Virus record (IMG/VR): IMGVR_UViG_3300027759_000393
Coordinates: 1 to 24,940 of that record
DNA: 24,940 nt
Reading direction: 5' to 3' (one strand)
Source of the DNA: a virus
Part shown: one piece after another, positions 934 to 24,940 of the stretch
Layout: each line of letters opens with the position of its first letter
How positions within the stretch are numbered: the first letter of the stretch is position 1
Position numbers and translations under genes: made by a program
The notes under the pieces: model-generated
What the model was told of the DNA's origin: nothing
The model's input: the letters and a program-made list of their open reading frames with translations, nothing else
Databases searched by the model: none

Positions 934-1851
934 TTATTCTTCGTAAACAACCGAACTCATTCCAGCACCCAGACCCTGACGAGTCCAGCTTGGATTAAGT
1001 CCATTTATTTCTAAGATGTCATCACGGATATTTTGATTTCGCTTTTCAGTATTTAAAACACGACAGAAACTATTTGTAATTGCTGCGGTATAGTATGCGA
1101 ATGGATTAGCACTTTTAGCTTCATTGAATCGTAAACCAACATAAGTTAATTGTAGAATAGCACTATTACGCATTTCGTCGTTATATGTATATCCACGCCA
1201 ATTATATTTCATAGCATATTTTTCACACATCATAATATACATACGGGCAAGTTTATTTGTTACTTGTCCATGATCCTTGCTAAACTCTCCTGTTTCCAAA
1301 TCACCTTTCCAATGACTTTTTCCCACGCAATAGAAAGTGTTATTGTTATCTATTTTATAATGTTGGAATGGAGGGAAGTTTACCTTAACATGAACCATGT
1401 CATCTACTTCTGCTTTAGTGGTAACATCTTCCAAGTCAGCAAAGATTTCATCTGGGTCAGCTTCTTCAAATTCAAATATATCTTTTGCGGTTTTCTTTTT
1501 AACTGTTTTACGGGGAACTTTTGGAGCAACTGGTACATGATCCCAATTCATTACACGAAATACTAAATCTGTTACTAGGATAGATTCTGGGTCAACTGAA
1601 TCTTTTACCCCTGCTTCTAAGCTAAGCCTAGTTGCCCTAGTTTCTTTTGCTTGTTGAATAGTTTCGGGTTTAAATGCATATTCTAAACTGTCTTGTATCG
1701 TAGATTGGGGCATATCTACAATAAAATCATATCTATGATATTCGGGTTTAGCAAAATGACAATAAGCTGTTTTGCTTTCATGTATTTCTTTTAGTATATC
1801 TTTGTTATTGAGATAATTAACGGGTTTTCGTGGCGCAGGTAATAATGACAT
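934..1851 (-). CDS. gp55: Late-transcription sigma factor, gp55-like, with large insertion
   Basis: 305 aa, against 185 in T4 gp55. The N-terminus has the gp55 signature NYLNNKDIL (residues 12-20), matching T4 YVNNKELL. Residues about 199-290 match the T4 polymerase/promoter-binding core: an LARMY...KYAMKYNWRGYT helix, NDEMR, NPFAYYTAAITNSF and the basic VLNTEKRNQNIRDD. Between them lie about 155 residues absent from T4, including a Lys-rich patch (110-123) followed by a very acidic one (127-151). The C-terminus, SSVVYEE, resembles the T4 tail SLDFLYE that contacts the sliding clamp gp45. Known role of the family: binds host RNA polymerase core and, with gp45 and gp33, directs it to TATAAATA-type late promoters. 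The start is supported by a strong AGGAG (minus strand, 1860-1856) four bases upstream. A sigma70-type promoter lies just upstream, fitting expression before the late genes. Confidence 0.9.
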   Translation of the reverse strand: MSLLPAPRKPVNYLNNKDILKEIHESKTAYCHFAKPEYHRYDFIVDMPQSTIQDSLEYAFKPETIQQAKETRATRLSLEAGVKDSVDPESILVTDLVFRVMNWDHVPVAPKVPRKTVKKKTAKDIFEFEEADPDEIFADLEDVTTKAEVDDMVHVKVNFPPFQHYKIDNNNTFYCVGKSHWKGDLETGEFSKDHGQVTNKLARMYIMMCEKYAMKYNWRGYTYNDEMRNSAILQLTYVGLRFNEAKSANPFAYYTAAITNSFCRVLNTEKRNQNIRDDILEINGLNPSWTRQGLGAGMSSVVYEE

Positions 1852-1854
1852 GGG

Positions 1855-1860
1855 TCTCCT
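1855..1860 (-). promoter_or_regulatory. Ribosome binding site of gp55
   Basis: Minus-strand AGGAGA lies three bases before the gp55 ATG. It is one of only two near-perfect Shine-Dalgarno sequences in the window and fixes the gp55 start. Confidence 0.75.
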
Positions 1861-1869
1861 TGTGTTATA

Positions 1870-1896
1870 GTTATGCTACAGTGATTATAGCATAAC
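1870..1896. promoter_or_regulatory. Operator-like palindrome over the gp55 promoter
   Basis: Arms GTTATGCTA (1870-1878) and TAGCATAAC (1888-1896) are perfect reverse complements separated by 9 bases. The palindrome covers the -10 box of the leftward promoter and the expected transcription start (near 1877). Because transcription would begin inside the left arm, an intact RNA hairpin could not form, so a DNA operator is more likely. The core TTATGCTA recurs at 1951-1958, touching the rightward late-type box. Confidence 0.5.
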
Positions 1897-1912
1897 AGTT
1901 GCAGAAAAGCAA
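1884..1912 (-). promoter_or_regulatory. Sigma70-type promoter for gp55 (and perhaps gp47)
   Basis: On the minus strand there is a perfect -10 TATAAT (1889-1884) with an extended TG one base upstream (TGCTATAAT), and a partial -35 TTGCTT (1912-1907) at exactly 17 bp. Predicted start is near 1877, giving a leader of about 26 bases before the gp55 ATG. A small GTTGC/GCAAC inverted repeat (1898-1913) overlaps the -35 box. Confidence 0.65.
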
Positions 1913-1955
1913 CAATTTTTTGTAGAAAAGGTAAAAATAGAGCATTATATTTATG

Positions 1956-1962
1956 CTAAATA
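1956..1962 (+). promoter_or_regulatory. T4-late-type promoter box for the baseplate operon
   Basis: CTAAATA, in the context ATGCTAAATAGTAC, resembles the T4 late box TATAAATA and the looser NATAAATA-like boxes reported for T4-like cyanophages. It lies 24 bases before the first structural ATG, with an AGAAGGA ribosome-binding sequence (1968-1974) between. Transcription would be expected to start around 1968-1970. Assigned from position and motif only. Confidence 0.5.
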
Positions 1963-1986
1963 GTACAAGAAGGATAATATTATTAT

Positions 1987-3585
1987 ATGGCAACTAATGA
2001 TTCATTAGCTAAGAACGGTGAACAGCAAAACATAGTCGGGGAAAAGATTAGAGCACAGAGTGCCATTATTAGAAGCGCAACTTCAACCGAGGCACAAAAA
2101 GAAGCTGCGTTTATAGAGCGAGATAAACTACGGCTTCAAAATAAAGCACTTGGTGCCGAAGAAGCAGCCCTAACTAAGCAGGACCCAGCGACTAGTCTAT
2201 ACGAAGGGGTAGATGAAACAGGACAGCAGCGATATTACAATCCGGCTACTGGAAAGTCATACTTCTCTGAAATCCCACCTACTACCGAACAACAAGCAAA
2301 TGTAAGGGATCCGGCGAGAGGATTTATTAACCAAACTACAGAGAACATTGTTTCCCCACCTGCAGTGGCTACTTCCCAAGTGCCAGTAAGGCTTGACCCA
2401 CCTGATCCAGTAACCGATCCAAATCTAGCACAAAATGCCGCAGCAACTGATGAAACTATACAAGACAAGAAAGTACCCACTGGCTCTAATCCTGCAAATG
2501 GAATACTTGAACCACCTGATGAAATTATTCAGGCTAAGACAGTTCCTACAGACGCTAATCCTACATATGGAATACTTGAACCACAAGATGAAACTATACA
2601 ACCCAAGAAAGTACCTGCTGATCCTGTTCTAGTGCAAAATTCTGATCCAGAAGGTTACGCAAATATACAAGAACAAAATGCTGCTGCTAATGAGGAAGCA
2701 ATACGCAATGCAGGAGAAGGAGGTACTGGGTTTGGGTTAACTACTGCAAAATTAAACACTCAATCACAGGCTACACAACAAGATGCAGTAAACTTTCAAG
2801 CAAAAGAAGATTGGCGAGTAAGATTAAGTTTAAGTCCCGGTGCAACATATTTGTATAAAGCTAGCCCACCTGGAATATTAGCACCACTACAAGCTACAGA
2901 CGGTGTCATATTTCCGTATACACCAGCAATATCAGTTCAATATAATGCTACTTATGATCCTACTGAATTAACACATAGCAATTACAAGTTCTTTACATAT
3001 AGAGGTAGTGCAGTAGATAGCGTTACTATTGGTTGTGATTTTACTGCACAGGATACATTTGAAGCACAATATGTATTAGCAGTAATACATTTCTTCAGGT
3101 CAATAACCAAAATGTTTTATGGACAAGATCAAAATCCAACCAACGGTACACCTCCGCCGTTGTGTTATTTAAGTGGTTTGGGTGCTTTTCAATTTGATGC
3201 TCATCCATTGGCAATTACAGCTTTTAACTACACTTTACCTACTGACGTTGATTACATACAAGCTGGAAGTAATTTTACCCCTGCTGGAGTTAATACAGCA
3301 GGTAGTCAACCAAAACAAGATCCGTTTCCAGATGCAATATCTCGTAGATTGGCTAGTAATGCTAATAATGCTCTTAATCCGGGTGCAACAGTATCATCAC
3401 CTAATTGGCAAACTACTAATACTGGAACAAAGGATGCTACTTATGTTCCTACTAAAATAAGTCTTAGTATTACTGCAAATCCAATAGTAACTAGAAATGA
3501 CATTAGTAATAAGTTTAGTTTGAGAGAATATGCAACAGGTGCATTGTTAAGAGGAACAAAACGAGCAGGTGGAGGAATTTGGTAA
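1987..3585 (+). CDS. Virion structural protein, possible tail-tube/baseplate connector
   Basis: 532 aa in two parts. Residues about 1-280 are Gln/Ala/Pro-rich and probably disordered: a short helical stretch (18-65), a YYNPATGK segment resembling a WW motif (72-98), and a 23-residue tandem repeat (encoded at 2449-2628). Residues about 285-532 form the conserved-looking domain, with FPYTPAISVQYNATYDP (309-325), LTHSNYKFF and an AVIHFFRSITKMFYG helix. This pattern resembles baseplate/tail-tube proteins next to gp53 in marine T4-like phages, and a gp48/gp54-like role (baseplate to tube connector) is plausible, but I cannot separate those from the sequence. It is the first gene after the divergent control region; AGAAGGA lies 12 bases before the ATG. 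Its stop overlaps the next start as TAATG, suggesting translational coupling. A structural role is fairly sure, the exact homologue uncertain. Confidence 0.75.
   Translation: MATNDSLAKNGEQQNIVGEKIRAQSAIIRSATSTEAQKEAAFIERDKLRLQNKALGAEEAALTKQDPATSLYEGVDETGQQRYYNPATGKSYFSEIPPTTEQQANVRDPARGFINQTTENIVSPPAVATSQVPVRLDPPDPVTDPNLAQNAAATDETIQDKKVPTGSNPANGILEPPDEIIQAKTVPTDANPTYGILEPQDETIQPKKVPADPVLVQNSDPEGYANIQEQNAAANEEAIRNAGEGGTGFGLTTAKLNTQSQATQQDAVNFQAKEDWRVRLSLSPGATYLYKASPPGILAPLQATDGVIFPYTPAISVQYNATYDPTELTHSNYKFFTYRGSAVDSVTIGCDFTAQDTFEAQYVLAVIHFFRSITKMFYGQDQNPTNGTPPPLCYLSGLGAFQFDAHPLAITAFNYTLPTDVDYIQAGSNFTPAGVNTAGSQPKQDPFPDAISRRLASNANNALNPGATVSSPNWQTTNTGTKDATYVPTKISLSITANPIVTRNDISNKFSLREYATGALLRGTKRAGGGIW
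2449..2628 (+). repeat. 69-bp in-frame tandem repeat (23-residue unit, about 2.6 copies)
   Basis: Units start at 2449, 2518 and 2587, exactly 69 bases apart. Each begins Asp-Glu-(Thr/Ile)-Ile-Gln, continues with a K-(K/T)-V-P core, and the two full copies end in G-I-L-E-P. The third copy is cut after about 14 residues. It lies in the disordered N-terminal half of the structural protein and looks like a linker grown by duplication. Confidence 0.8.
3571..3576 (+). promoter_or_regulatory. Ribosome binding site deciding the gp53 start
   Basis: GGAGGA lies 8 bases before the ATG at 3585. This favours 3585 over the TTG at 3579, which would leave only two bases of spacing. The site is inside the last codons of the upstream gene. 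Confidence 0.75.
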
Positions 3586-3897: not shown

Positions 3898-6426
3898 ATG
3901 GCTGATAATTTAGCGTTTGATGATCGGGATATGCCTGCACAAGCAGGTGGGGTGAATAATACATTAAATACATATCCTGCAGCAGGGGGAGGAGCACCGG
4001 TTGAGGCAACGCCTACTACCCCGGCAGGTAAAGCAGGTACTCCGGCAGCAAAAATTAATAAAAATGCACCGGGTAAACGAATTCAAAATCCATTAGGTAA
4101 TTTTTCAAGTTACACATATCAAATATCTTTGTATATGATAACACCCGATGCGTATGATGCTTTTATTCAAACGGGCAGAAAAGATATCAATGCAATTAAT
4201 AATATAGTACCAGGAGCAAACACACCTGAAGCAGTAGCAGCAGAAGACGCAAGTAACAGGGGAAACACTACTTCTCCGCCGGCGCCGTCTAGTGCAAACG
4301 CATCTAGCACTCAATATACTAATGGTGTATATTTGATTGCTCAAAGCGGTGGCATTAACAATAAAACACAACAACGTGCTCCTGGGTTTGATTTAGATTA
4401 CTACATTGATGATTTATCAATAACACAGGCTATAAATGGTAAGGATACGCTTAGTGCAACTAATGTTACTGATATTAGATTTACAATAACAGAACCATAT
4501 GGGTTTTCATTCATTACAAAATTGCGTAATGCTGCTACTGAGTTAGCAAAAGTTTCTAGGTCTAAGAATTTTAAAGATATAAAAAATCCATCACGGCAAT
4601 TCTTTATGCTAGGCATTAGATTCTTGGGATATGATAAAGATGGATATTTAATTGACCCTACAAAAATTCCAAGTTCAGATGGAGATCCGCAAGGTAATGC
4701 ATTTGGACTATATGAAAGATTCTATGATATATTCATTACTGGAATGAAGTTTAGAATAGATGGAAAAGCAGTAATATATAATATCACCGCAACTAATGTT
4801 GCCACTGGTGCGGCGTTTGGAACTAAGCGTGGGTTCGTAGATACAGGTGCATCTATATCAGGAGCAACTGTATATGATGCATTGATGGGAGGATCAGCAG
4901 CCGGACCTAAACCCGGCGAGTCAGCATCTACTACCCCACCTCAAAGCGGCACGATTGGATTGCTTGCTAAGTTAAACAAAGATCAACAAACTCTACTTAA
5001 AAATAAATCAATTGAAATTGCCAATGAATGGGATGTGGTCTTTTTAGGGGTTGCTGATTTATTGATAAAAAAAGCAAGCATTGTAGATAAAGCTGTGTTA
5101 GACAAAAGAGTGTGGGCTATGACTAACAACGTTAATAAGAGTGCAGACTCTAATGTTGCAACAGGAGAAAATAGTAAACCTAATAATGATGTCAGACAGA
5201 TCACCTTTACTAAAGGTGGTTCTATATTACAATGTGTTAATCAAATTATTTTGCAAAGTGATTATTTGTTGAACGCACTAAAAACAGCGTATCTTTCAAC
5301 TGAGGAGTCCACTGAGCAAGGAAAATATCCAGAACAAAAAAATCCACAAGAAGTAAAAATACAGTGGTATACAATGCATGCCGAAGTAAAGAACTTGGGT
5401 TGGGACAACCTACAACAAGATTTTGCGTACAAAACAACTTTTACAATCCAGCCTTACGAAACGCCCGTGGTTGTTGCACCGTATGTAAAACTCGGGGCAA
5501 AATATTATGGCCCGCATAAACGGTATGAATATTGGTTTACTGGAAAAAATAGTGAGATATTATCCTATGAACAGCAAATGGATAACACCTTTTTTAATGT
5601 AGCAGTATCCGCAAAAGATAATACCTCAGGTGTCAATACTGGTACATCAACTAGAGCAAACAAAGAAAGTGGACAACCTGATCAAGGGTCCTTGGGTATG
5701 GGATTGCAAGCACAAAATGCATACATGACGAGTTTGTATGATCCTGGCACATATGCAACTGCAAAGATAAAAGTGTTAGGAGATCCTGATTTCTTAATGC
5801 AACCCGCACCTAGTAGTATAAACTCATTCTATGATCAATTTTACGGCACTGATGGATATACGATAAATCCAAACGGTGGACAAGTTTTCATTGAAATTAA
5901 TTTTAAAGAACCAAGAGATTATCAAAATAGCACAGGATTATTAAGTATTAATCAATCAATATATTTTTGGGAATATCCTGCAGCTATACAAAAACAACTA
6001 GATGCTAGGGGCGGCGGCGTTAGTTATATGGTTAGAACTGTAGTTAGTACCTTTAGTAAAGGTAAGTTTGAACAAGAGCTAACTTGTAACATAAACACAT
6101 TTGGAAATGAAACAGCAGATGCTGCATCAGCTACAGCCGCAGGGAGAGACCAAACTGCTGCTATCTCAGCTAGAACAGGTGTAGCTTTAACTCCGGAAGC
6201 CGCTGCCACCGCAAGGGCTACATTTGCTGATAACGATCCTAGACTAGTAAATGGTCCGGCAACAAGTGCTAATGGCTCTGCTAGTGTACCGTCAAGCACT
6301 ACCACTATCAATCCAATGAATACTAGTAACAGTGTTGTCCAAGCAGCAGCTAGACTAATAGAAAATCAAACACTAATTCAAAACGGAGTGCAGGACGATG
6401 ACGCTGGACAGATCGGTCCAAGATGA
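3898..6426 (+). CDS. Large baseplate structural protein, probably hub-associated
   Basis: 842 aa. Residues 1-63 are a Pro/Ala/Gly-rich leader. A folded region starts at NPLGNFSSYTYQISLYM (about 64), followed by a low-complexity loop (about 105-135) and beta-rich segments such as FDIFITGMKF-like and IYNITATN strands. The motifs YEYWFTGKNSEIL (about 543) and DPGTYATAKIKVLGDPDFL (about 614) lead into a C-terminal beta domain ending VSTFSKGKFEQELTCNI. The last 100 residues are Ala/Thr/Ser-rich and probably disordered. The strand-rich make-up, the SKGKFEQEL-type ending seen in contractile-tail hub proteins, and the position directly before the gp5-like spike suggest the hub (gp27 position), but it is more than twice the length of T4 gp27 (391 aa). 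The hub role is inference; the structural role is well supported. It starts one base after the gp53 stop. Confidence 0.7.
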   Translation: MADNLAFDDRDMPAQAGGVNNTLNTYPAAGGGAPVEATPTTPAGKAGTPAAKINKNAPGKRIQNPLGNFSSYTYQISLYMITPDAYDAFIQTGRKDINAINNIVPGANTPEAVAAEDASNRGNTTSPPAPSSANASSTQYTNGVYLIAQSGGINNKTQQRAPGFDLDYYIDDLSITQAINGKDTLSATNVTDIRFTITEPYGFSFITKLRNAATELAKVSRSKNFKDIKNPSRQFFMLGIRFLGYDKDGYLIDPTKIPSSDGDPQGNAFGLYERFYDIFITGMKFRIDGKAVIYNITATNVATGAAFGTKRGFVDTGASISGATVYDALMGGSAAGPKPGESASTTPPQSGTIGLLAKLNKDQQTLLKNKSIEIANEWDVVFLGVADLLIKKASIVDKAVLDKRVWAMTNNVNKSADSNVATGENSKPNNDVRQITFTKGGSILQCVNQIILQSDYLLNALKTAYLSTEESTEQGKYPEQKNPQEVKIQWYTMHAEVKNLGWDNLQQDFAYKTTFTIQPYETPVVVAPYVKLGAKYYGPHKRYEYWFTGKNSEILSYEQQMDNTFFNVAVSAKDNTSGVNTGTSTRANKESGQPDQGSLGMGLQAQNAYMTSLYDPGTYATAKIKVLGDPDFLMQPAPSSINSFYDQFYGTDGYTINPNGGQVFIEINFKEPRDYQNSTGLLSINQSIYFWEYPAAIQKQLDARGGGVSYMVRTVVSTFSKGKFEQELTCNINTFGNETADAASATAAGRDQTAAISARTGVALTPEAAATARATFADNDPRLVNGPATSANGSASVPSSTTTINPMNTSNSVVQAAARLIENQTLIQNGVQDDDAGQIGPR

Positions 6427-6456
6427 AGATGCTGACAAAAATTCAAGTATTAATAT

Positions 6457-7908
6457 ATGGCACAAGACTATTTTAAACCAAGAGGACAACTTCCAGAAAG
6501 TAAACCAGACGCTGGTGGCGGGGTAATACGCAATACTCCCACCCTTGCTGTTGTTAAAAACAATATTGATGCTACCCGAGGCGGTAGAATCCAAGTATAT
6601 CTATCAGATTTTGGTGCACCTGACTCGGAAGATAGTACAAGTTGGGTAACTGTAAGTTACATGAGTCCCTTTTTTGGATCAACACCTGCATCTGGAAGTA
6701 ACAAATCAACTGATTATGGCACATATACTCAAAATCCAAGTTCATACGGTATGTGGTATAGTCCCCCTGATATAGGAAGCACAGTTATTTGTATCTTTAT
6801 CAACGGAGATCCAAGTTATGGATATTATATCGGTAGTGTTCTACAACCTGAATTACTACAGATGATTCCTGCAATAGGTGCTTCCCCTGATATCATAGCA
6901 AATGATCCTGAATCTGCGGCGTTAGGTGGGGCAACACTTTTGCCAGTAACTAATTTAAATACAAACAATCCTATCATAACAAATGGTACACAGTTTTTAA
7001 CTGCACCTAAACCAGTTCATAGTTATAGTTCTTCTATATATTTTCAACAAGGTTTGATCAGAGATTCAATTAGAGGACCAATATCAAGTAGCGCATTACG
7101 TGAAAGTCCGTCTCGTGTTGGTTGGGGAGTTAGCACACCAGGTAGACCAATTTATCAAGGTGGGTTTACCGACAACAATGTATTAACTAAAGTAGCTTCA
7201 GCAACCAATGAGTCATTAAAATTAGTATCACGTAGAGGTGGACATAGTATTGTTATGGATGACGGTGATGTTGTTGGCAAAGATCAACTGATAAGATTAA
7301 GAACAGCATTAGGTCATCAAATATTAATGAGTGATGATGGACAAACATTGTTCATTATTCATGCTAACGGACAAAGCTATATTGAATTAGGCAAAGAAGG
7401 TACAATTGATATGTACGCTACCAACAGCGTAAATATCAGGACACAAGGAGATTTAAATTTACACGCTGATAACAATATTAACATTAATGCTAAGAATGAT
7501 TTAAATATAGCAGCTAATAATATTAAAATAAATGCCGAGACTGATATTTCTTATCGTTCAGGCAAAAACTTTAGTGGTTACACATTAGGTACCTATACAG
7601 TTAAAGTTAATGGTTCAATGAGTATGGAAGCAAGTGGTGAGGGTTCTTATGCCAGCACAGGAACAATGTATGTTAATGGTAGCAAAATAAATTTAAATAC
7701 AGGATCAACGTCAGTAACCCCGGCAGAAGTACCCAAAATACCCATAGTAACTCATACTGATACATTGTTTGACAAAATTAAAGGATGGTTAGCGGCTCCT
7801 GGATATCTGTTATCTATTGTTAGTCGTGCTCCTGCTCATGCTCCTTGGTCAAGTGCAAATCAAGGGGTTGATGTTAAAGTAAATAATAATAGTAGTAGGG
7901 CATTTTAA
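6457..7908 (+). CDS. gp5: Baseplate central spike, gp5-like, lacking the lysozyme domain
   Basis: 483 aa. Residues about 25-135 form an OB-fold typical of gp5/gpV/VgrG spikes (GGRIQVYLSDFG, WVTVSYMSPFFG, YSPPDIGSTVICIFINGDP, GYYIGSV). A linker (about 140-250) follows. Residues about 255-415 form a triple-stranded beta-helix, shown by HSIVMDDGD, GHQILMSDDGQ and a run of short repeats alternating polar and aliphatic residues (MYATNSVNI, LNLHADNNININAK, IKINAE). The C-terminus has a Pro/His segment, SRAPAHAPWSS, before a disordered tail. T4 gp5 (575 aa) carries a lysozyme between the OB-fold and the helix; here that space has no catalytic lysozyme pattern. The protein is the membrane-puncturing tip of the tail. 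No clear ribosome binding site precedes the ATG, 31 bases after the upstream stop. Its stop overlaps the next start as TAATG. Confidence 0.85.
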   Translation: MAQDYFKPRGQLPESKPDAGGGVIRNTPTLAVVKNNIDATRGGRIQVYLSDFGAPDSEDSTSWVTVSYMSPFFGSTPASGSNKSTDYGTYTQNPSSYGMWYSPPDIGSTVICIFINGDPSYGYYIGSVLQPELLQMIPAIGASPDIIANDPESAALGGATLLPVTNLNTNNPIITNGTQFLTAPKPVHSYSSSIYFQQGLIRDSIRGPISSSALRESPSRVGWGVSTPGRPIYQGGFTDNNVLTKVASATNESLKLVSRRGGHSIVMDDGDVVGKDQLIRLRTALGHQILMSDDGQTLFIIHANGQSYIELGKEGTIDMYATNSVNIRTQGDLNLHADNNININAKNDLNIAANNIKINAETDISYRSGKNFSGYTLGTYTVKVNGSMSMEASGEGSYASTGTMYVNGSKINLNTGSTSVTPAEVPKIPIVTHTDTLFDKIKGWLAAPGYLLSIVSRAPAHAPWSSANQGVDVKVNNNSSRAF

Positions 7909-13901: not shown

Positions 13902-16900
13902 ATGGCATCAAGAATTAGAACATTAGATTTTCTTCCAGAAATATTTAAAACCACAACCAACGCACAATTTTTAGCAGCAACGCTAGATCAACTGGTCGCA
14001 CAGCCCAATATTAAAAGGATTCAAGGGTATATTGGTAGTAAATTTGGATATGGTGTTAATGCTACCGATCGGTATGTAACTGAACCCACCAAGACAAGAA
14101 CTGATTATCAATTGGATCCGGGTGTTATTTTCTTAAAAGAAAATAATTCTACTGCAAAAGATTTTATTAGTTATCCTGGAATTATAGATGCATTGAGTTT
14201 AGAAGGTGGATTAACTGCTGATAACAATAGACTATTCAATAGTCAGTTTTATTCATGGGATTCATTTACTAATTTAGATACAATCATTAACTTTAACCAA
14301 TACTATTGGTTACCGGAAGGACCCGAGCGTGTAGTAGTTGCTTCTAATATAGTATACAATGCAGAAAACTTTATTGTTCAACCTGAAGCAAACTATTATT
14401 TAATTTCTTCAGAATCTCTTGCTACCCCCAGTGCTAACCCAACATTAACTCTATTAAGAGGTGGACAGTATACCTTCACAGTGGATCAACTTACTGAGTT
14501 TTGGATTCAAGGAGTACCCGGTGTTACTGGATTAAGTCCAACCGAACGCAATGTACAAACTCGTGATGTATACGGGGTTACAAATAACGGGGCAACTAAT
14601 GGAGTTGTTACATTTTCTGTCCCTCAGAAAAATGCATTAGATGACTTTATTTTTCCAGGCGATAATACAGTGGGTGTTGTTTCAACATTACCATTTGATC
14701 AAGTAAACGGAGCATTAGTAAATGAAATAGGAGGTATTGACGGAGTAACCGCATTAGCCGGATTAACTGTAATGTTTTACAATACCGGCGTACCGAGTGA
14801 AAGTGGATTTCTTGATAAATTCTTTGACCAAACATTATATGATGAAAATGGCGGAGTAAACTACAATGAAAGTATTGATTACCCCGGATCGGTAATCTTC
14901 AACAATAATTACGAAGGTGGATACTATACAGATGTATCTGCTACTTTCTACACCATTAGTTTATTAGGAGATATTGATAATCCTCAGATTCAATTGACTG
15001 CTACAGCAGCAATCCCTACCAATCAAAAAATAACTGCAACATATGGTTTAGAGTGGGCAAACAGAAATTTTTATAGAAGTTCAATTGGTGTAATAACATT
15101 ACAGCCATACAACAGTGCTATACTAGATAAATTGTATTATCAAGATGGTACTATCCCCGGTCGGGTTGGTGTTATCAATTTGATTGAGAACAACATTACA
15201 AATCAAATTAATGTAGTAACTGATATTTTAGGCAAGGCCAACTATACCTCTAAGAATGGTGTTGTCTTTACTAATGGATTAAAAGTTCTTTTTCAAGGTG
15301 ATATATATCCTGAAAGTTTCAACAACGTAGAATTTTATGTTGAAGGTGTAGGTACAGCAATTGAATTGATACCTGTAACTACACTTGTTTCCCCTGGTTT
15401 ATTCGCTGCAGGTTCATATATTCCGTACGATACTACACCGTACGATATGAGTAACTATGATTCAAATTTGTACATTCCGATCAATCCTGATTATATAACT
15501 ATTGCTAGAAATTCTATTAATAGAAATGCATGGTCAAGAAGCAATCGTTGGTTTCATATTGATGTTATTAATGCCACAGCAACATATAACAATGCTCCCG
15601 AGTTAGTTACTGAATACACTCAATTGGGTAATAAAGCAAAAAGACCTATTATTGAATTCTACCCTAATCTTAAATTGTTCAATAGTGGTGCTGTGGGTAA
15701 AAACCCTATTGACTTCATTGATACTAAAACAACCGATGCATTTACTTATGTGGCTGGTCAACCTAATTATTACCCAGATACAGCTGGTTATACAACTAGT
15801 AACGCAACTATTGCGCCGGTAACCGGCGCAATAATAAAGACTGCAACTGCAACTATCTCATTAATAAATCAAGTAGTATTAGATAACACAACTGGATTGC
15901 ATGTCAATGACACAATAACTTTCACCGGCACTGCGTTTGGTGGAATCAGCACAAGTCCTACAAATAATTCTAACTTATATTATGTGCTTGAAATCGTAAA
16001 TTCTACTAACATTATAATATCAGCTACTAATCAAGGAACTCCAGTAACAGTAACTTCTAGCTCAGGCTCAATGTCAGCATCAGTTTATCCATATAGCACT
16101 ACTGTTACAGCATTAAGCACTGATGTATTTGGGTTGTTTACTATAGGACAGTATATAACTGATTCTACTGGTTTATTACCGTCAATTACTTTTATAACTA
16201 ATGTTAGTACAGTGGGTTCCGACACTGTTATTACTGTATCTTGGTATAACCAATCAATTATTGCTGGCACCTCAATTGCATCAGTAGTAACTGCTGACAC
16301 CCCATTAGATAACTATGCATTATTTGACGGCTCAAGAGTAGTATTTGCAGCCGACACTGACAATAACGTTAGAAATAAAATATACGTTTCACGGTTTTCT
16401 ACAATCCAGCCGGGTAGTATTCCAGTAATTACACTGACTGAAGCTAGTGATGGGTTAGTATTACCAAACGAGCAAACAGCAGTTTACCGAGGATATAATT
16501 ATCAGGGTAAAGATTTTTTCTTTGACGGTGTTGATTGGATTAATGGTCAACAAAAAACTCAAATAAATCAACCGCCTAAATTTGATATCTATGATAGCAA
16601 CGGTATAAGTTTAGGAGACTCTGAGGTTTATGTTGGAACCTCATTCTCAGGTTGCACATTGTTTTCATATGGCATAGGATCAGGATCAAATGATCCAGTA
16701 ATAGGGTTTCCATTAAGATATAGTTCAGTTAGTAATGTAGGTGACATAAGTTTTGATGTTACATTAAATTCTGATACCTTCACATATGTTCGAGGATTAA
16801 ATGCGTTAACGGAGAACGTAAACACCGGGTATGTTTATAACTACGCAATAACACCCGGCAATGATCCAATAATTGTTAGACAGTTAGGATGGCAAACTGC

Positions 16901-19900
16901 GGTATCACCTAGTGTGCAATATCAAATTTTTGAATTTGATTACGATGCAGTAACAAATACAACCAACACTTTCACTTGTGATATAGCACCTGTTGTTACT
17001 ACACCCACATTGTGGCCAATGATTCAAGTTTATATTAACAATATCTATGTGCCAACCACTGAGTGGCAAGTTCTTGATCCTTTATCTACCATCTCAACAA
17101 CTATTACTATTCCAGTAATTCCTACGACAAATACTGTAGTACAAATTTTAATTTTAAGCGATCAAGTAAGCCAAACTGCATACTTTCAAACTCCTATCAA
17201 CTTAAATAACAATCCATTAAATGCACCAATTACAACTGCAAACATAGGTGACATTCGTGGACAGTATCAAAGTATTTTCTTTAACAATCCTAATACAACA
17301 GGTATTGTTTTTGGCGCAAACAACTATCGTGATTTGGGTAACTTGGTTCCGTGGGGTAATAGAATCATACAGAATAGTGCCTCACTAGTATTGCCTGGCA
17401 CTTTCTTAAGAAATCAAGATCATAATTTATTCAACTCATTGTTGTATAATAGCAGACAATATATTACGTTTAAGACATTATTGGTGGATACAGTTAATAA
17501 TTCAGATTATTCTAGAATACTGACACCATCACAAATGTTGGATGCTGCATTAGATCAGATTAATGCCTCAAATGTAGAATCTCAATCGTTTTTCTGGAGT
17601 GATATGTTGCCTTCTAAGGCACCATACATCACGAATACATATAGTTTTGCAAATTCGTTAGATATAAGTGTTTATCCATTAAGCCATATCTATACTTTTG
17701 CTACTGCGAATTATGATGGTATATTAGTATATTTGACTCGCAATAATGTACAAACACAATTAATTAAGGGTATAGACTATACAGTTAGTATTGATAGTCC
17801 GTCATTAACGGTTACGCAAGCACTAGAAGCAAATGATCAAATTACTATAAAAGAATACAATCAAACATATGGAAGTTATGTTCCAAATACACCTACTAAA
17901 TTAGGATTATATCCTGCAACTATTCCTAGTGTAACACTAGATACAGCTTATAGTCCTGCAACATATTTCATAGTGGGACATGATGGGTCATTTAATAAGC
18001 TGTATGGTAGCTATGACGCAACCACAGATACATTAGTTGATTTCAGAGATCAAGTATTACTTGAATATGAAACTCGTGTATACAACAATTTAAAACTAGG
18101 TGAAACAGTTCCTGCAGGTTCATATCAAGGTGTAATTATACCTGGCTTCTTTAGAACCACTGATTATTCAACCGATGAATTTTTACAAATTTATAGTGAG
18201 TTGTTTTTAAATTGGGTTGGTCAAAACAGAATTAATTATAAAACACAATTCTATAATACGAATAATAAATTTACTTACAACTACAGAGACAGCGGCAATA
18301 AAATAAACAATCAACCAATTGAACAGGGATATTTCAGGGGTGCTTATTTGTTCTTTTATGATACAAGTACTCCAAACGAAACTCCTTGGCAGATGTTAGG
18401 TTTAGCAAATCAACCAACTTGGTGGACTAGTCGTTATGGTCCTGCACCATATACAAGTGACAACTTGGTGTTGTGGGGAGATTTAGAAACTGGTACCGTT
18501 TGGAATGACGGCACCCCGTTTATTAAACCTAACTATGCTCGCCCTGGTTTATCAAAAGTAATACCAGTAAATAGTAATGGTGATTTAGTATCACCGTTTG
18601 ATTCACTAGTTGGTAATTACGATCAATATCTATTCCAGCGTGATTGGATAGTAGGCGATGTTGGTCCTGCAGAGTTCAGCTATCGTAGAAGCAGCACTTG
18701 GCCCTTTGACTTGATGCATATTCTTGCATTAACTAAACCAGCTGATTTCTTTAACTTAGGTGTTGATGTTGATACTTACAAATACAATGTAGAATTTAAT
18801 CAATATCTAGTCAATGATAGAAGTCATTTAGTAATAAGTGATGTTCCAATATATGGTGCAGGAACGCCTGCGACTAGCTATATCAACTGGATAGTTGACT
18901 ATGAAAAACAAGTTGGAATAGATGCAACAACTAACATAACTACATTGTTGGATAACTTAGATGTTCGGTTAGTATATCGTGCAGCAGGCTTTAGCGACAA
19001 AAACTTGTTGAAATTCTACGTTGAAAAGAGTTCAGCAAATAGTAATAATAGTTCATTATTAATACCTGACGAAAGCTATGGTTTATTATTGTACGAAAAT
19101 CAACCATTTGATAGAATCATCTATAGTGGTGTCGTAATACAAATAACTGAAAATGGTTATAAAGTTTTTGGTAACTCACAAACTAATGCATATTTCAAAA
19201 CACTTACACCAAAATTTGGCGGAAATATTCAAACAATTACAGTTGAAAACTTAACAGTAAAAGTTACTGATAGTTTTACTAGAGAGATACAAGTAATTCC
19301 GTATGGAACTGAATTTTACAATACACAACAAGTAGCACAGTTTTTAATTAACTATGGTGAATATCTAATAAGTCAAGGTGTAGTATACGACGAAATTGAA
19401 AATGGTATTCCAATTCAATGGCAACAAATGGTTTCTGAATTCTTATATTGGGCACAAACTGGATGGGACCTTGGTTCTATTACAACTATCAATCCTTCAG
19501 CTAACTTAATAACTATTGACAAAGAAAGCAGAATTGTTCAACCATTAACACTAAGTCAAAAAAACTTTTTGTTGAATCAAGAATTATATCCAATCTCAAC
19601 AAGTAATTTAAATATTACCCGTGATGGTACTGCATTTGCAGCAAAAACATTAAATGTGGGTGATGCGATTAGCTATGGTCAATTCAATATTAGTAACATT
19701 GAAAATGGCATAGTTTTTGACAATGTTACATTGTTTAATGATATAATTTATAATTTAGTTACAGGTCTAAGACAATATCGTATATCTGTTAATGGATCAT
19801 TAACTGCTGATTGGAATGGCAACGTTGATGCTGCTGGATTTATTTTAAATCAAGATAATGTAGTAGAGTGGAACAACACTATTAAATATACTGCCGGTTC

Positions 19901-22900
19901 TATTGTAAAATATAAAAATAAATATTGGTCTGCTCTTAGAATAATACAACCAAGCACATTGTTCAATGAACTTGATTGGAAAGAAACATCTTATGATCAA
20001 ATTCAAAAGGGATTATTACCAAATAGTCAGACACGTTCATATGAAAGCACATTGTATTATGACGTAAATAAAGCTAATTTAGAAAATGATGCTGATTTAT
20101 TATCATTCTCTTTAATTGGATATCGTCCAAGAGACTATCTCGCATTAGTTGATTTGACTGACGTTACTCAAGTTAATGTTTACAAAAACTTAATTAAAAA
20201 TAAAGGCACATTGAATGCAGCTAGCGCCTTTAAGGGTACAAATTTACCTCAAGGTGGTATTGATTATACAATATATCAAAATTGGGCTATTAAGTCGGGT
20301 GAATTTGGCGGAATACTGAATAACAACTTCATTGAGTTTAGACTTGATCAACCAAAATTAGTTGGTAATCCTTCTATTGTTGGATTAACATCTGGTGTAT
20401 CTATCAACGGTGTGCAACAAGAAGTACCACTATATAGTGTGTTTAACTATGGAAGACCAATCACAACTGTTAATATACTACCCACTATTTCAAACTTACA
20501 ACCATCATCATTGTATCCCACTGCTGGATATGTTAATTTAAATGATGTTAAAATGGCTAGCTATTTTTATTCTGGATTATCAACAGCGCAAAATGCTGCC
20601 GGAACTACAATTCCTATTAGTCAATTCTATGTGCGTGATTATGTTTGGTTAGCAAACTATCTTTCAACATGGCAAGTTTATACTCCTGCTAGTTTGGGAT
20701 CAGTTATCAATGCTAAGAACAATTTAAACAATACTGTAACTATCACCTTCAGTCAATCTCATAATTTGAAGAAATATGAATCTTTTGCAATCGTTAATTT
20801 TAATGTTGCAATTGATAATTATTATATTGTTGCTGCTGTAGTCGATCCGTTCAACGTCATTATAAATCTTTCATTGAATCCGCAAATAAAAACTATTAAC
20901 GGTCAGGGTGTTGGCTTTAGATTACAAAGTCAACGTGTAGCAACTGCACCTGAGATAGGTACTTTGCCTTTGTTAGATAACGAGTTTAATAAATTAAAAG
21001 TGTGGGTTGATACCAACAATGACGGTAGCTGGGCTGTATATCGCAAAAGTTTAAATTATCAATATGATAAAGAAATTGTAAATTCAGCGAGTGAAACTTT
21101 TGGTAGCGCAGTTGCATACACTTCTAGTTTTGGTTACTTAATAGGTGACAGTGGTACTGGAGAAGTATATCGTTATACCTATGATGCAATTAGTGATTCT
21201 TACATACCATTCCAAACAATAACACAAACCACATCGTTTGGTGCAAACATATCTTATATTAATAACTTGTTTGTTGTTTCTCAACCTACAGGAACACCTA
21301 AGGTTTATGTATACCAATACATTAATACTCAGGCACTCAACACATTACAATTGTATCAAACTATTGATGCTCCTGGTGGAGTCACAACATGGGGAACTTC
21401 AACAGCATTGTCAGGTGATCAAAATTGGCTTTATGTTTCTGACATTGATAATAATAGTGTTTATGCTTATCGTAGAGCAGCATACAGTGTTACCAGTGGT
21501 AACTTTGTTTCAGGTAATACATACACTATTACTAGTGCGGGTACTACTGATTTTACATTAATTGGCGCATCTAGTAATATTGTAGGAACAATATTCTTAG
21601 CAACTGGAGCCGGTACCGGCACAGGAACTGCTACAAACTCTACATATGAATTTGCACACATTATTGACGGGGACGCATTAAGTTTAACAAGCGCAGGTGA
21701 TAACTTTGGCTATAGTATATCAACTGATTACTATGGTGATACAGTAGTTATTGGCACACCACAACAAGATTATGATGTTAACACTCAGAATTATGGATAT
21801 ACTTATGTATTCTCTAGAACCGTTCAAAATTTTGAATCACAATCAAACAGTCAAGCATATGTTCCAGTAGCATTGCCGTTAGCTTGGACACCTACTACAG
21901 TTACACAAACCGCAACTGCAACCACCGCAGCTAATAATAGAATTACTGTTAGTGATAGTACTGGATTTACGGTTGGTGATCCTGTAGTATTCTCGGGTAC
22001 TATCATATCTGCCGGCGCGATCTCACAGAATACAGTATATTATGTATTGGCTAAACCAACATCAACTACATTCACTATCTCAACTACACGTAATGGTAGT
22101 GTGATACAATTATCCGATGATACGGGTACCATGACAGTAACAGTGCAGACAACTCCGTTGTTTGTTGAAATTAACGGAACTTCACTTGCAGATAATTATT
22201 ACGCTGTGATTGGTTCTATATTAAACATCTATAGTGGAGCAACACCTACATTAAATGCAGGTGACATAATAAATGTAAGTGGTTCTAACTTTGTGTTAGC
22301 ACAAACACTGACCAATGAAGAAACCCCAAGAGTTGGCGTACAATTTGGTTTAAGCACTGATACTAATACATTTGCAAATGAAATATTAGTTGGAGCTCCT
22401 TTTGAATTAAGTGCAGAGAACTACGAAGGTGCTGTTCATAGATACACCAATGGTGGCGAAAGATATGGTACTATCCTTGGCACAACTGCATGTAATATAA
22501 CTACTCCTAGAACTATTCTATTGAATGGGTACAAAGTTGTGTTACCGATTGGCAATGCAGCAACTGTAGCATCAAGTATTAACTTGTTAAGTCTTACTAA
22601 CATTCAAGCAAGCGCAGTAAACGGTAACTTAGTAATATCACTAATCAATGTTGATTTGGGTATTGCAGGTAACAAACTAACACTAACTCTATTAGATACA
22701 GCTACATTAGGTGAAATGGGAGTCGTATTATACAAGCAAACACAAAAGGTAGCTTGCCCTCACGTACAAGGTCGTACTCAATTTGGTACTGTAGTAAAAT
22801 TTGATAAGTCTAATTCTGGTTCATTTATAGCAAGTGCTCCAGTTGGAACTAGATATTCTAGTACAACATTTGACTTCTTTGACGATGAAATAGATAATGA

Positions 22901-24940
22901 CACAGTTTTTGATAACAACGCCACCCAATGGGTTGACACATTTACTAACGCAGGTGCAGTGTACATGTTTGACTATTTGGCATTGTACAATGAAAATATA
23001 AATAATCCTGGACAATTTGTATATGCTCAAAGTACAAATGCTCAAGACTTGGATTATGGCGCACAACCATATTATGGCTCTGCACTAGATTTTAACAACA
23101 ATAGAGTTACTATTGGTACACCAAACTTTGTTCCAACTGTAGATGCTAATAACACCCTTGGGCAAGTTGTTACTTATGTAAGTACAGCAGGTACTCCAGA
23201 TTGGGCAGTATATAGAAATTCTTCACCAATTGTTGATGTTAACGGAATATTCAACATTCAATTGTTTAGTGCAACCACTAATCAAACCTTAGCAAACTTA
23301 GATTACATTGATCCTCTACAAGGAAAACTATTAGGGGCAGTATCAGAAAATATTGATGTGGTTTCAAACAATGACCCAGCCGCATACAATTCAGCAGGGT
23401 CTACTCAAGGTGGAAAAGTTTGGGCAGCAGATAAAGTAGGTAGTCTTTGGTTTGATACATCAAACACTCGCTTTATGAACTATCATCAAAATGATGTAGA
23501 ATATAATAGCCAATATTGGGGTAGAGTATTTCCTGGAAGTAACGTAACAGTTTATTCTTGGATTGCAAGCCAATCAATACCTTCACAGTATGCAGGCACC
23601 GGAACACCATATGATGTTAACAGTTATTCTATTCGTGGAATAATTAATGCAGAAGGTTTGATAACACCAATTTATTATTACTGGGTAAGAAATACAAATA
23701 TTGTATTTTCATCAGTAGGTAAAACATTAGCAGATAGTACACTTGAATCTTATATTTCACAACCACAGCAAACTGGTATCAGTTACTTTACCTCACTGTT
23801 ACCTAGTGTATTTGGATTATACAACTGTGCTGAGTATATTAACGCAAAAGATACTGTATTGCACATTGGCTATTCAGAAACCACCAATGATGATGTGGCG
23901 CATAATCAATATAGTTTGATTCGTGATGGTTATCCTGACGATTTCTTAAGTGGTATCCCTGGCTCAGGCGCAGCATATCAAAATCACGCAGCAGTGGGCA
24001 TAACAGAACCTATTGGTTTATACAATAGAATGCTAGACAGCATGTGCGGGGTTGACAACGCCGGCGGAGTTGTGCCCGATCCATTACTACCTAAAGCGGT
24101 ACAAACCGGCATACTAGCTAGACCAAGACAAGGTTTCTTCTATAATAGATTTGGCGCCCTAGCAAACTACTTACAGTACGCTAATACAGTGTTGGCACAG
24201 TTCCCCATCAATGAGTTAAGAAATCCTAAATTCTTATATAGAACAGGTGAATTCTTTGATACTACTAAGTATTGGAATACTATTAATTGGTGGGCAATTG
24301 GTTATAATGATAATACTAAATCATCAATACAAGTTCCTATATATGCAGATTTGTCTACACTAAATGTACCCAATGGTACTATTGTAACAGTCGCATCAAA
24401 TGGTGCAGGTAATGCAGAGACTTACATTTATTCTGGCGCCGGCATCTGGACTAGAATTGGATTGGCTAACGGTACTATTGAATTTAGTAGTAAACTATGG
24501 GACTATACTGAAGCTCAGTTAGGATTTGGGGATAACTTCTTTGATACTACCCCATATGATGAATATCCATCAGAAGAAACACGTTATATTATCCGTGCAT
24601 TAAATGAAGAAATTTACACTAACGAATTATTAATCTTTAGAAACAAGAGCTTGATATTACTATTTGAATATATTCAAAGTGAAACTATTGAAAGTCAAAA
24701 CTATCTAACATGGTTAAACAAAACATCATTCATAGATGTATCTCACACCATTCGTGAATTGCTTCCTTTAGAAGTGTTCCGTTCTGATAATCAATTATTC
24801 TTAGAAGGATACTTGAATGAAGTCAAGCCATATCATGTAGTAATCAAAGAATTTATCTTTAGGTATACTCGCACTGACATATTTGAAGGAGATATAACCG
24901 ACTTTGATTTGCCGGCTCAGTACAATTCAACAATAGAACA
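13902..24940 (+). CDS. Giant virion structural protein in the gp7/gp8 position, 3' end beyond window
   Basis: One frame without a stop from the ATG at 13902 to the window edge: at least 3,679 codons. The start is supported by an AGAGA sequence ten bases upstream and by an N-terminus (FLPEIFKTTTNAQFLAATL) of a type known from large baseplate/tail proteins of marine T4-like phages. Conserved-looking blocks: LGNLVPWGNRII (about 1146), VGHDGSFNKLYG (1358), WPFDLMHILALTKPADFF (1600), a YVWLANYLSTWQVY block (about 2247), seven FG-GAP-like repeats (2400-3090), LWFDTSNTRFMNY (about 3184) and YLNEVKPYHVVIKEF (3637-3651). Small inserted modules occur at about 647-727, 2532-2577, 2670-2749 and 2872-2941. 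It directly follows gp6, the place of T4 gp7 (1,032 aa), but is at least 3.5 times longer, so it may combine wedge and outer-baseplate or fibre functions. No signal peptide or enzymatic motif was seen. Confidence 0.85.
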   Translation, partial: MASRIRTLDFLPEIFKTTTNAQFLAATLDQLVAQPNIKRIQGYIGSKFGYGVNATDRYVTEPTKTRTDYQLDPGVIFLKENNSTAKDFISYPGIIDALSLEGGLTADNNRLFNSQFYSWDSFTNLDTIINFNQYYWLPEGPERVVVASNIVYNAENFIVQPEANYYLISSESLATPSANPTLTLLRGGQYTFTVDQLTEFWIQGVPGVTGLSPTERNVQTRDVYGVTNNGATNGVVTFSVPQKNALDDFIFPGDNTVGVVSTLPFDQVNGALVNEIGGIDGVTALAGLTVMFYNTGVPSESGFLDKFFDQTLYDENGGVNYNESIDYPGSVIFNNNYEGGYYTDVSATFYTISLLGDIDNPQIQLTATAAIPTNQKITATYGLEWANRNFYRSSIGVITLQPYNSAILDKLYYQDGTIPGRVGVINLIENNITNQINVVTDILGKANYTSKNGVVFTNGLKVLFQGDIYPESFNNVEFYVEGVGTAIELIPVTTLVSPGLFAAGSYIPYDTTPYDMSNYDSNLYIPINPDYITIARNSINRNAWSRSNRWFHIDVINATATYNNAPELVTEYTQLGNKAKRPIIEFYPNLKLFNSGAVGKNPIDFIDTKTTDAFTYVAGQPNYYPDTAGYTTSNATIAPVTGAIIKTATATISLINQVVLDNTTGLHVNDTITFTGTAFGGISTSPTNNSNLYYVLEIVNSTNIIISATNQGTPVTVTSSSGSMSASVYPYSTTVTALSTDVFGLFTIGQYITDSTGLLPSITFITNVSTVGSDTVITVSWYNQSIIAGTSIASVVTADTPLDNYALFDGSRVVFAADTDNNVRNKIYVSRFSTIQPGSIPVITLTEASDGLVLPNEQTAVYRGYNYQGKDFFFDGVDWINGQQKTQINQPPKFDIYDSNGISLGDSEVYVGTSFSGCTLFSYGIGSGSNDPVIGFPLRYSSVSNVGDISFDVTLNSDTFTYVRGLNALTENVNTGYVYNYAITPGNDPIIVRQLGWQTAVSPSVQYQIFEFDYDAVTNTTNTFTCDIAPVVTTPTLWPMIQVYINNIYVPTTEWQVLDPLSTISTTITIPVIPTTNTVVQILILSDQVSQTAYFQTPINLNNNPLNAPITTANIGDIRGQYQSIFFNNPNTTGIVFGANNYRDLGNLVPWGNRIIQNSASLVLPGTFLRNQDHNLFNSLLYNSRQYITFKTLLVDTVNNSDYSRILTPSQMLDAALDQINASNVESQSFFWSDMLPSKAPYITNTYSFANSLDISVYPLSHIYTFATANYDGILVYLTRNNVQTQLIKGIDYTVSIDSPSLTVTQALEANDQITIKEYNQTYGSYVPNTPTKLGLYPATIPSVTLDTAYSPATYFIVGHDGSFNKLYGSYDATTDTLVDFRDQVLLEYETRVYNNLKLGETVPAGSYQGVIIPGFFRTTDYSTDEFLQIYSELFLNWVGQNRINYKTQFYNTNNKFTYNYRDSGNKINNQPIEQGYFRGAYLFFYDTSTPNETPWQMLGLANQPTWWTSRYGPAPYTSDNLVLWGDLETGTVWNDGTPFIKPNYARPGLSKVIPVNSNGDLVSPFDSLVGNYDQYLFQRDWIVGDVGPAEFSYRRSSTWPFDLMHILALTKPADFFNLGVDVDTYKYNVEFNQYLVNDRSHLVISDVPIYGAGTPATSYINWIVDYEKQVGIDATTNITTLLDNLDVRLVYRAAGFSDKNLLKFYVEKSSANSNNSSLLIPDESYGLLLYENQPFDRIIYSGVVIQITENGYKVFGNSQTNAYFKTLTPKFGGNIQTITVENLTVKVTDSFTREIQVIPYGTEFYNTQQVAQFLINYGEYLISQGVVYDEIENGIPIQWQQMVSEFLYWAQTGWDLGSITTINPSANLITIDKESRIVQPLTLSQKNFLLNQELYPISTSNLNITRDGTAFAAKTLNVGDAISYGQFNISNIENGIVFDNVTLFNDIIYNLVTGLRQYRISVNGSLTADWNGNVDAAGFILNQDNVVEWNNTIKYTAGSIVKYKNKYWSALRIIQPSTLFNELDWKETSYDQIQKGLLPNSQTRSYESTLYYDVNKANLENDADLLSFSLIGYRPRDYLALVDLTDVTQVNVYKNLIKNKGTLNAASAFKGTNLPQGGIDYTIYQNWAIKSGEFGGILNNNFIEFRLDQPKLVGNPSIVGLTSGVSINGVQQEVPLYSVFNYGRPITTVNILPTISNLQPSSLYPTAGYVNLNDVKMASYFYSGLSTAQNAAGTTIPISQFYVRDYVWLANYLSTWQVYTPASLGSVINAKNNLNNTVTITFSQSHNLKKYESFAIVNFNVAIDNYYIVAAVVDPFNVIINLSLNPQIKTINGQGVGFRLQSQRVATAPEIGTLPLLDNEFNKLKVWVDTNNDGSWAVYRKSLNYQYDKEIVNSASETFGSAVAYTSSFGYLIGDSGTGEVYRYTYDAISDSYIPFQTITQTTSFGANISYINNLFVVSQPTGTPKVYVYQYINTQALNTLQLYQTIDAPGGVTTWGTSTALSGDQNWLYVSDIDNNSVYAYRRAAYSVTSGNFVSGNTYTITSAGTTDFTLIGASSNIVGTIFLATGAGTGTGTATNSTYEFAHIIDGDALSLTSAGDNFGYSISTDYYGDTVVIGTPQQDYDVNTQNYGYTYVFSRTVQNFESQSNSQAYVPVALPLAWTPTTVTQTATATTAANNRITVSDSTGFTVGDPVVFSGTIISAGAISQNTVYYVLAKPTSTTFTISTTRNGSVIQLSDDTGTMTVTVQTTPLFVEINGTSLADNYYAVIGSILNIYSGATPTLNAGDIINVSGSNFVLAQTLTNEETPRVGVQFGLSTDTNTFANEILVGAPFELSAENYEGAVHRYTNGGERYGTILGTTACNITTPRTILLNGYKVVLPIGNAATVASSINLLSLTNIQASAVNGNLVISLINVDLGIAGNKLTLTLLDTATLGEMGVVLYKQTQKVACPHVQGRTQFGTVVKFDKSNSGSFIASAPVGTRYSSTTFDFFDDEIDNDTVFDNNATQWVDTFTNAGAVYMFDYLALYNENINNPGQFVYAQSTNAQDLDYGAQPYYGSALDFNNNRVTIGTPNFVPTVDANNTLGQVVTYVSTAGTPDWAVYRNSSPIVDVNGIFNIQLFSATTNQTLANLDYIDPLQGKLLGAVSENIDVVSNNDPAAYNSAGSTQGGKVWAADKVGSLWFDTSNTRFMNYHQNDVEYNSQYWGRVFPGSNVTVYSWIASQSIPSQYAGTGTPYDVNSYSIRGIINAEGLITPIYYYWVRNTNIVFSSVGKTLADSTLESYISQPQQTGISYFTSLLPSVFGLYNCAEYINAKDTVLHIGYSETTNDDVAHNQYSLIRDGYPDDFLSGIPGSGAAYQNHAAVGITEPIGLYNRMLDSMCGVDNAGGVVPDPLLPKAVQTGILARPRQGFFYNRFGALANYLQYANTVLAQFPINELRNPKFLYRTGEFFDTTKYWNTINWWAIGYNDNTKSSIQVPIYADLSTLNVPNGTIVTVASNGAGNAETYIYSGAGIWTRIGLANGTIEFSSKLWDYTEAQLGFGDNFFDTTPYDEYPSEETRYIIRALNEEIYTNELLIFRNKSLILLFEYIQSETIESQNYLTWLNKTSFIDVSHTIRELLPLEVFRSDNQLFLEGYLNEVKPYHVVIKEFIFRYTRTDIFEGDITDFDLPAQYNSTIE
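15840..16082 (+). repeat. About 80-residue beta module, copy A, in the giant protein
   Basis: Starts T-A-T-A-T, then VVLDNTTGLHVNDTITFTG, LYYVLEIVNSTNIIIS and a Gly-Ser-Met-Ser close. Same order of elements as copy B at 21909-22148: a T-A-T-A-T lead, a D-x-T/S-T-G-hydrophobic-x-V-x-D turn, F-x-G-T, YYVL, I-S and a Gly-(Ser/Thr)-Met ending. Confidence 0.65.
21495..21632 (+). repeat. 46-residue module inserted between propeller repeats 3 and 4
   Basis: Reads SGNFVSGNTYTITSAGTTDF, then LIGASSN and a GAGTGTGTAT close. The pattern (x-F-V-x-G-x-x-Y-x-I-x-S-x-G-T-T-D-F-T-x-I-G-A-S) is one I recognise as a recurrent stand-alone module in many unrelated phage structural proteins. It interrupts the propeller cleanly between two repeats. 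Confidence 0.65.
21909..22148 (+). repeat. About 80-residue beta module, copy B, between propeller repeats 4 and 5
   Basis: Starts T-A-T-A-T-T, then ITVSDSTGFTVGDPVVFSG, VYYVLAKPTSTTFTIS and GTMTVTV. Related to copy A at 15840-16082, about 2,000 residues earlier in the same protein. The two copies are diverged, so not a recent duplication. Confidence 0.65.

Follow-up and report, generated by a model that had tools for sequence, protein, structure and literature searches.

Genomic context of the giant ORF

The window, the whole stretch of viral DNA analysed here, comprises 24,940 nucleotides of the IMG/VR record IMGVR_UViG_3300027759_000393. Genes for gp53-like (3579), gp5-like (6457), gp25 (10002) and gp6-like (10504) proteins precede a giant ORF, which directly follows gp25 and the gp6-like gene and so occupies the gp7 position in the gene order. 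Two minus-strand frames beside this baseplate cluster (2–883 and 934–1851) may encode, as judged by eye, a gp47-like metallophosphoesterase and a gp55-like late sigma factor. Rfam and tRNA scans across the window gave no match. The giant ORF is a single open reading frame that holds the whole propeller region described below, and its main parts outside that region are as follows.

13902–24938, plus strand: giant ORF, 3679 codons in the window and running past its end; baseplate protein at the gp7 position, PHROG 10938 (full-length relatives 5982–6656 aa)
17169–20411, plus strand: conserved core of the giant protein (residues 1090–2170), common to RaK2/PA5oct-type phages; structure prediction unreliable
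23220–24938, plus strand: conserved domain downstream of the propeller (residues 3107–3679), common to PA5oct, SCTP-2 and RaK2-type proteins

A preliminary description of this DNA, made from the sequence, called the product a baseplate protein, and this assignment is now backed by gene order together with the detection of homologues in virions by mass spectrometry (MS). PA5oct gp355 has been MS-detected in virions, as has CBB gp236, under the name CBB_236 (PMC5259590). For the clade studied here, 'virion structural protein' is the one label that the giant protein has received to date. Full-length relatives comprise about 5980–6720 residues, and their C-terminal ~2400–2900 residues, beyond the point where the window ends, contain many copies of modules like those inserted in the propeller. 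Proteins of ~6000–6700 residues (relatives L282–L288) are very large among phage proteins.

A sequence search of residues 1–2333 against the PDB returned no match. A structure model of the core, built to test homology to T4 gp7, is uncertain (pLDDT 53.6) and its PDB matches are confined to two short parts; T4 gp7 is not among the matches listed, which carries no weight either way. Model residues ~1238–1323 (17613–17870) resemble phage fibre-attachment or fibre N-terminal domains and P1 baseplate domains, with Z up to 8.6. Model residues ~1987–2031 (19860–19994) resemble chitin-binding-type modules, including one in the Milano baseplate receptor-binding complex, with Z up to 7.7, and Pfam CBM_5_12 matches the same stretch below its cut-off. 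These resemblances have low values and are hints that point to surface contact.

A predicted seven-bladed propeller of the integrin type

The propeller and its parts are distributed along the giant ORF as listed here.

21030–23219, plus strand: predicted seven-bladed integrin/FG-GAP-type propeller domain, residues 2377–3106 (AlphaFold2, VIA-align, FG-GAP_2)
21030–21044, plus strand: N-side junction strand WAVYR (2377–2381), after KVWVDTNNDG (one of the two copies bracketing the domain)
21084–21224, plus strand: blade 1 (2395–2441; model, shuffle test, conservation)
21225–21368, plus strand: blade 2 (2442–2489; model, conservation; alone not significant in the shuffle test)
21369–21668, plus strand: blade 3 (2490–2589; model, conservation; borderline in the shuffle test)
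21489–21638, plus strand: insert 1, a 50-residue GTTDFT module in the C–D loop of blade 3 (exact presence or absence in relatives)
21669–22310, plus strand: blade 4 (2590–2803; FG-GAP_2 match, model, conservation)
21837–22265, plus strand: insert 2 (2646–2788, ~143 residues) in the C–D loop of blade 4 (model)
22311–22754, plus strand: blade 5 (2804–2951), with a canonical GAP turn (model, shuffle test, conservation)
22452–22730, plus strand: insert 3 (2851–2943, ~93 residues) in the C–D loop of blade 5 (model, alignment)
22755–23036, plus strand: blade 6 (2952–3045; model, shuffle test, conservation)
22839–22955, plus strand: B–C loop of blade 6 (2980–3018), acidic and highly conserved (pLDDT < 50 at 2985–3012)
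23037–23219, plus strand: blade 7 (3046–3106), its strand D coming from the N-terminal edge (model, shuffle test, conservation)
23202–23216, plus strand: C-side junction strand WAVYR (3101–3105; second copy of the bracket)

The blade motifs start with ETFGSAV (21093), TSFGANI (21231), TTWGTST (21384), DNFGYSI (21699), VQFGLST (22338), TQFGTVV (22776) and PYYGSAL (23067), so that all seven aromatic-glycine turns of the preliminary description are found where it placed them. Relatives were gathered from IMG/VR (77 loci); a wider scan yielded 340 confirmed relatives, and 42 were aligned. Near-complete relatives are represented by contigs of 229–364 kb. The turn glycine is kept in 293 of the 294 cells formed by 42 relatives and seven blades. 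The residue before it is near-invariantly F, W or Y in blades 2–7 and is F, L or Y in blade 1, and the proline of 'GAP' is kept in five of the seven blades (2, 4, 5, 6 and 7). Pfam FG-GAP_2 (PF14312) matches 41 of the 42 relatives (best E 1.2e-12; best score 48.2 bits against a cut-off of 23), the window copy scoring 22.2 bits, slightly under the cut-off. The stretch that it matches is blade 4. The classical FG-GAP family PF01839 gave no match in the window record; by these family profiles the repeat belongs with PF14312 and not with PF01839. A search of NCBIfam gave no match, and searches of the PDB with the propeller sequence, single or as a family profile, returned nothing below E 0.01.

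Leave-one-blade-out profiles compared with 500 shuffles support several blades singly. The window score is reached by 2/500 shuffles for blade 1, 1/500 for blade 5, 6/500 for blade 6 and 1/500 for blade 7, while blade 3 is borderline (50/500) and blades 2 and 4 fall short of significance. As this test supports blades 1, 5, 6 and 7 but not 2 or 4, the blade count is open from sequence alone. It is settled at seven by the agreement of structure prediction and fold comparison. AlphaFold2 with an alignment of 42 relatives gives a confident model of residues 2367–3133 (pLDDT 83.9, pTM 0.86), in which the DSSP string and the alignment range resolve the strands into seven four-stranded blades, the last of them closed by an N-terminal edge strand.

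Foldseek's PDB matches were given a second look with VIA-align. All 50 of the 50 PDB entries listed are integrin alpha subunits, with Z 34.7–38.4. The top match is alphaM (9t3y; Z 38.4, rmsd 2.6 Å over 341 residues), and alphaL (5e6u) has an equal Z. The predicted propeller is a close match to its counterpart in the human integrins, which are adhesion receptors. The integrin alignment spans model residues 18–730, that is, all blades, at 16–19% identity. In Foldseek's own ranking the integrins are mixed with multi-propeller proteins at low TM-score. The nearest viral models come from uncultured phages and giant viruses, and some of them carry an FG-GAP annotation. As modelled, residues ~2377–3106 almost certainly fold into a seven-bladed propeller that is closed and has the integrin-alpha (FG-GAP) fold. 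A set of unrelated beta repeats, or chance spacing of aromatic-glycine pairs, is scarcely credible: the insignificance of blades 2 and 4 against shuffles and the lack of a PDB sequence match below E 0.01 would suit it, but it has to contend with a confident model reaching Z 38 to integrins over the whole domain, and with the near-complete retention of the turn glycine and of FG-GAP_2 among the relatives.

Both the closed seven-bladed architecture proposed in the preliminary description and its FG-GAP/integrin-type classification thus hold, the former through the structure prediction and the latter through the all-integrin PDB neighbours listed and the FG-GAP_2 matches. Its limits (21093–23186) placed the domain correctly and were slightly too narrow; the domain extends over about 21030–23219, since its N-terminal edge supplies the closing strand. 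No blade contains a DxDxDG calcium loop, the sole D-x-N-x-D-G sequence being DTNNDG at the N-terminal edge (2370–2375). With an integrin-propeller fold and no calcium loops, the domain is not an integrin.

Inserts and the GTTDFT module

Three enlarged gaps between blades had been noted at 21495, 21909 and 22515–22724. They correspond to real inserts at 21489–21638, 21837–22265 and 22452–22730, all of which lie between the third and fourth strands (the C–D loop) of the neighbouring blades 3, 4 and 5. By the usual propeller geometry, and not from the model coordinates, C–D loops are placed on one face. Inserts 2 and 3 are fixed in 42/42 relatives, so only insert 1 shows turnover. It is present in 14 of the 42 with identical borders, and on a tree built without its columns its presence changes five times, four of the changes being forced by supported branches. 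On this tree insert 1 is gained or lost, in either direction, at exactly the same site at least four to five times.

The GTTDFT-type module (consensus like AGSFxxGxxYTIxxxGTTDFTLIGASSNTVGVxFTATGAGSGTGTAT) occurs at at least 521 places in IMG/VR, sometimes in three to four copies per locus (L211, L221, L245, L268 and others). Among 92 sampled copies, 61 lie in proteins that are unlike the giant protein outside the module. The ~50-residue module has no Pfam or NCBIfam match, and an annotated phage collection holds only one to two matches to it. Judged by this spread of similar sequences, insert 1 represents a phage module of 50 residues that is promiscuous. A recent copy-paste of the module within genomes was considered and rejected; the copies are old, with nucleotide identity of 0.63–0.74. 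Part of insert 2 (2667–2750) is similar to modules found repeatedly in the C-terminal half of full-length relatives, and also at residues 640–728. The long C-terminal extension that L018, L041 and L042 show in the alignment was also examined as a propeller insert and rejected, as it consists of the downstream domain and another GTTDFT-like module.

Relatives with and without the propeller

Homologues of the giant protein are found in PA5oct, CBB, RaK2, Munch, Sharanji, Atu_ph07, Phosso and SCTP-2. They have the core and the downstream domain without the propeller. The RaK2/CBB/121Q/PA5oct-type proteins (PHROG 10938) share the homologous core, the downstream domain and the position after gp25 and gp6, and differ in lacking the propeller and in comprising 3323–3857 residues (4449 and 4555 in Atu_ph07 and Phosso) against about 6000–6700. 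The slot that holds the propeller in the clade is ~220 residues long in Sharanji, ~300 in PA5oct and ~1500 in Atu_ph07/Phosso, without detectable similarity. The idea that the slot of Atu_ph07/Phosso, PA5oct, SCTP-2 or Sharanji conceals a propeller was rejected, since there is no profile similarity, and FG-GAP_2 has no match in the PA5oct, Sharanji and SCTP-2 genomes.

When the two flanks are joined without the propeller they align contiguously to the RaK2-type profile (probability 100, E 1.3e-44, 463 columns). In the window and in 5/5 full-length relatives the propeller is bracketed by two copies of a W(A/S)V(Y/F)R strand, one at each edge; in PA5oct and SCTP-2 the slot contains a single W-A-V copy. 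When clade members are scored with a strict strand pattern, 51 of 66 carry two copies and 14 carry one; by that pattern the doubling is common but not universal. The empty-site alignment and the doubled strand fit the insertion of a whole propeller beside a strand that became doubled. Sequence comparison thus makes it very probable that the propeller entered the giant gp7-position baseplate protein as one whole domain. It is found in 79/79 core loci whose DNA reaches the propeller position, and the core lies upstream in 103 of 104 propeller loci, the remaining locus being cut at its start.

In Atu_ph07 gp180/Phosso the slot (residues ~1650–3170) is filled by other sequence with several glycine-rich GxGYxxxPxVxxxG-type repeats. 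Sinorhizobium phage Phosso (PV764938.1) also has two other very large frames of 3702 and 3182 aa, at about 48–69 kb and 92–94 kb. These hold most of its 55 FG-GAP_2 matches, the giant wedge protein having none, and from these matches each of the two frames probably encodes several propellers.

Comparison with known propellers

The phage propeller shares with that of integrin alpha the seven four-stranded blades, the N-terminal closing strand and the FG..GAP-type turns, and in both, domains may sit among the blades (the alpha-I domain in integrins). It differs in having no DxDxDG calcium loops, which integrins carry in blades 4/5–7, in missing the GAP proline in blades 1 and 3, in bearing its inserts in the C–D loops of blades 3–5 and not between blades 2 and 3, and in residing inside a baseplate protein. 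The Cage-motif definition includes the GAP proline in each repeat, and bacterial integrin-type propellers combine one calcium site in each repeat with loops that are regular and compact (PMC3192720). The latter are likewise prokaryotic seven-repeat FG-GAP propellers; the phage propeller has large inserts and no blade calcium sites.

Propellers are also known from phage tails. phiKZ gp131C (PDB 4GBF) is a seven-bladed propeller at the baseplate periphery of a jumbo myophage (PMC4901313). It resembles the present domain in blade number, phage type and baseplate location, but is the C-terminal domain of another protein and, not being among the matches listed, is compared by description only. The phi11 receptor-binding protein (RBP) also places a propeller in the tail/baseplate machinery, but with five blades and in an RBP trimer. 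The nozzles of T7 and SU10 likewise contain propellers. In SU10 a seven-bladed propeller uses its blade loops to dock fibre and needle, and has further domains placed between its blades (PMC9509320). It differs in being part of a podophage nozzle, with no detected sequence relation.

A possible docking and display platform

Conservation within the propeller is highest in strands A–C and in the 39-residue B–C loop of blade 6, which scores 0.74 against 0.60–0.72 for the strand classes. The C–D inserts are its least conserved part (0.51). Few stretches of the domain are conserved as strongly as this loop (TTFDFFDDEIDNDTVFDNNATQWVDTF), most of which has pLDDT under 50. High conservation in a segment that is unmodelled alone suggests a partner absent from the model, and the loop is a possible partner-binding or metal site; it could alternatively be a poorly predicted region. 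The conserved loop on the one hand, and the variable C–D inserts with the turnover of insert 1 on the other, give the propeller a two-sided appearance.

In the outer part of each baseplate wedge, the propeller may serve as a rigid platform. A virion partner, such as a fibre or an adjacent wedge protein, would dock on its conserved side, chiefly at the acidic B–C loop of blade 6. The edge formed by blades 3–5 would display exchangeable modules outward, and these modules may contact the host surface when the phage adsorbs. The conserved, unmodelled loop and the precedent of SU10 favour this docking and display platform over receptor binding and pure architecture; taken as a whole, with propeller and insertion included, the account stands a little better than an even chance.

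Receptor binding by the propeller, a role that the preliminary description had raised as a possibility, is plausible by analogy. Its face might recognise a host glycan or surface protein, as integrin propellers are adhesion domains and receptor roles have been proposed for the propellers at the baseplate periphery of phiKZ and phi11 (PMC4901313). The weak chitin-binding-type matches of the giant protein, including that to the Milano complex, point the same way, but the glycan site of phi11 is only modelled. Receptor-binding domains usually vary fast, whereas the clade has retained the propeller at all 79 loci where its presence could be tested, and its mean identity to the window, ~60%, is only moderately below the ~72% of the core. 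As the main role of the domain, receptor binding is thus unlikely, though a serious contender.

The propeller might also be architecture only, enlarging the wedge as a spacer or brace, and its inserted modules would then be neutral decoration. RaK2- and PA5oct-type relatives manage without it, repeated modules accumulate in the C-terminal half of the protein, and such modules occur in many unrelated phage proteins. The strong conservation of one long loop and the retention of the propeller throughout the clade argue instead for a specific contact, and make a purely architectural role rather improbable.

Novelty and significance

Phage baseplate propellers and phage FG-GAP proteins are already known. 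Literature treating FG-GAP, phage and baseplate together was not found, within a search of limited scope in which absence is not proof. Nor did the literature searched describe an integrin-type propeller inserted in a gp7-position giant wedge protein, with empty-site comparison and a recurrent module slot, and here too absence is not proof. What is new is the clean domain insertion, the recurrent gain or loss of insert 1 and full-length relatives of ~6,000–6,700 residues.

More tentatively, a whole integrin-type propeller may have been captured into a jumbo-phage wedge protein, its receiving strand doubled and a blade edge turned into a reused slot for a phage-wide 50-residue module; such a history is possible and less than probable. 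If true, it would mean that an evolvable display platform is built into the baseplate itself and not onto a separate fibre. The analysis assigns an adhesion-receptor-type propeller, predicted with confidence, to a definite position of the baseplate in a large uncultured jumbo-phage clade. Comparison of this clade with the RaK2- and PA5oct-type phages, with and without the propeller, and the recurrent gain or loss of a module at a single loop let one ask both how baseplates acquire new outer domains and whether such platforms decide host contact.
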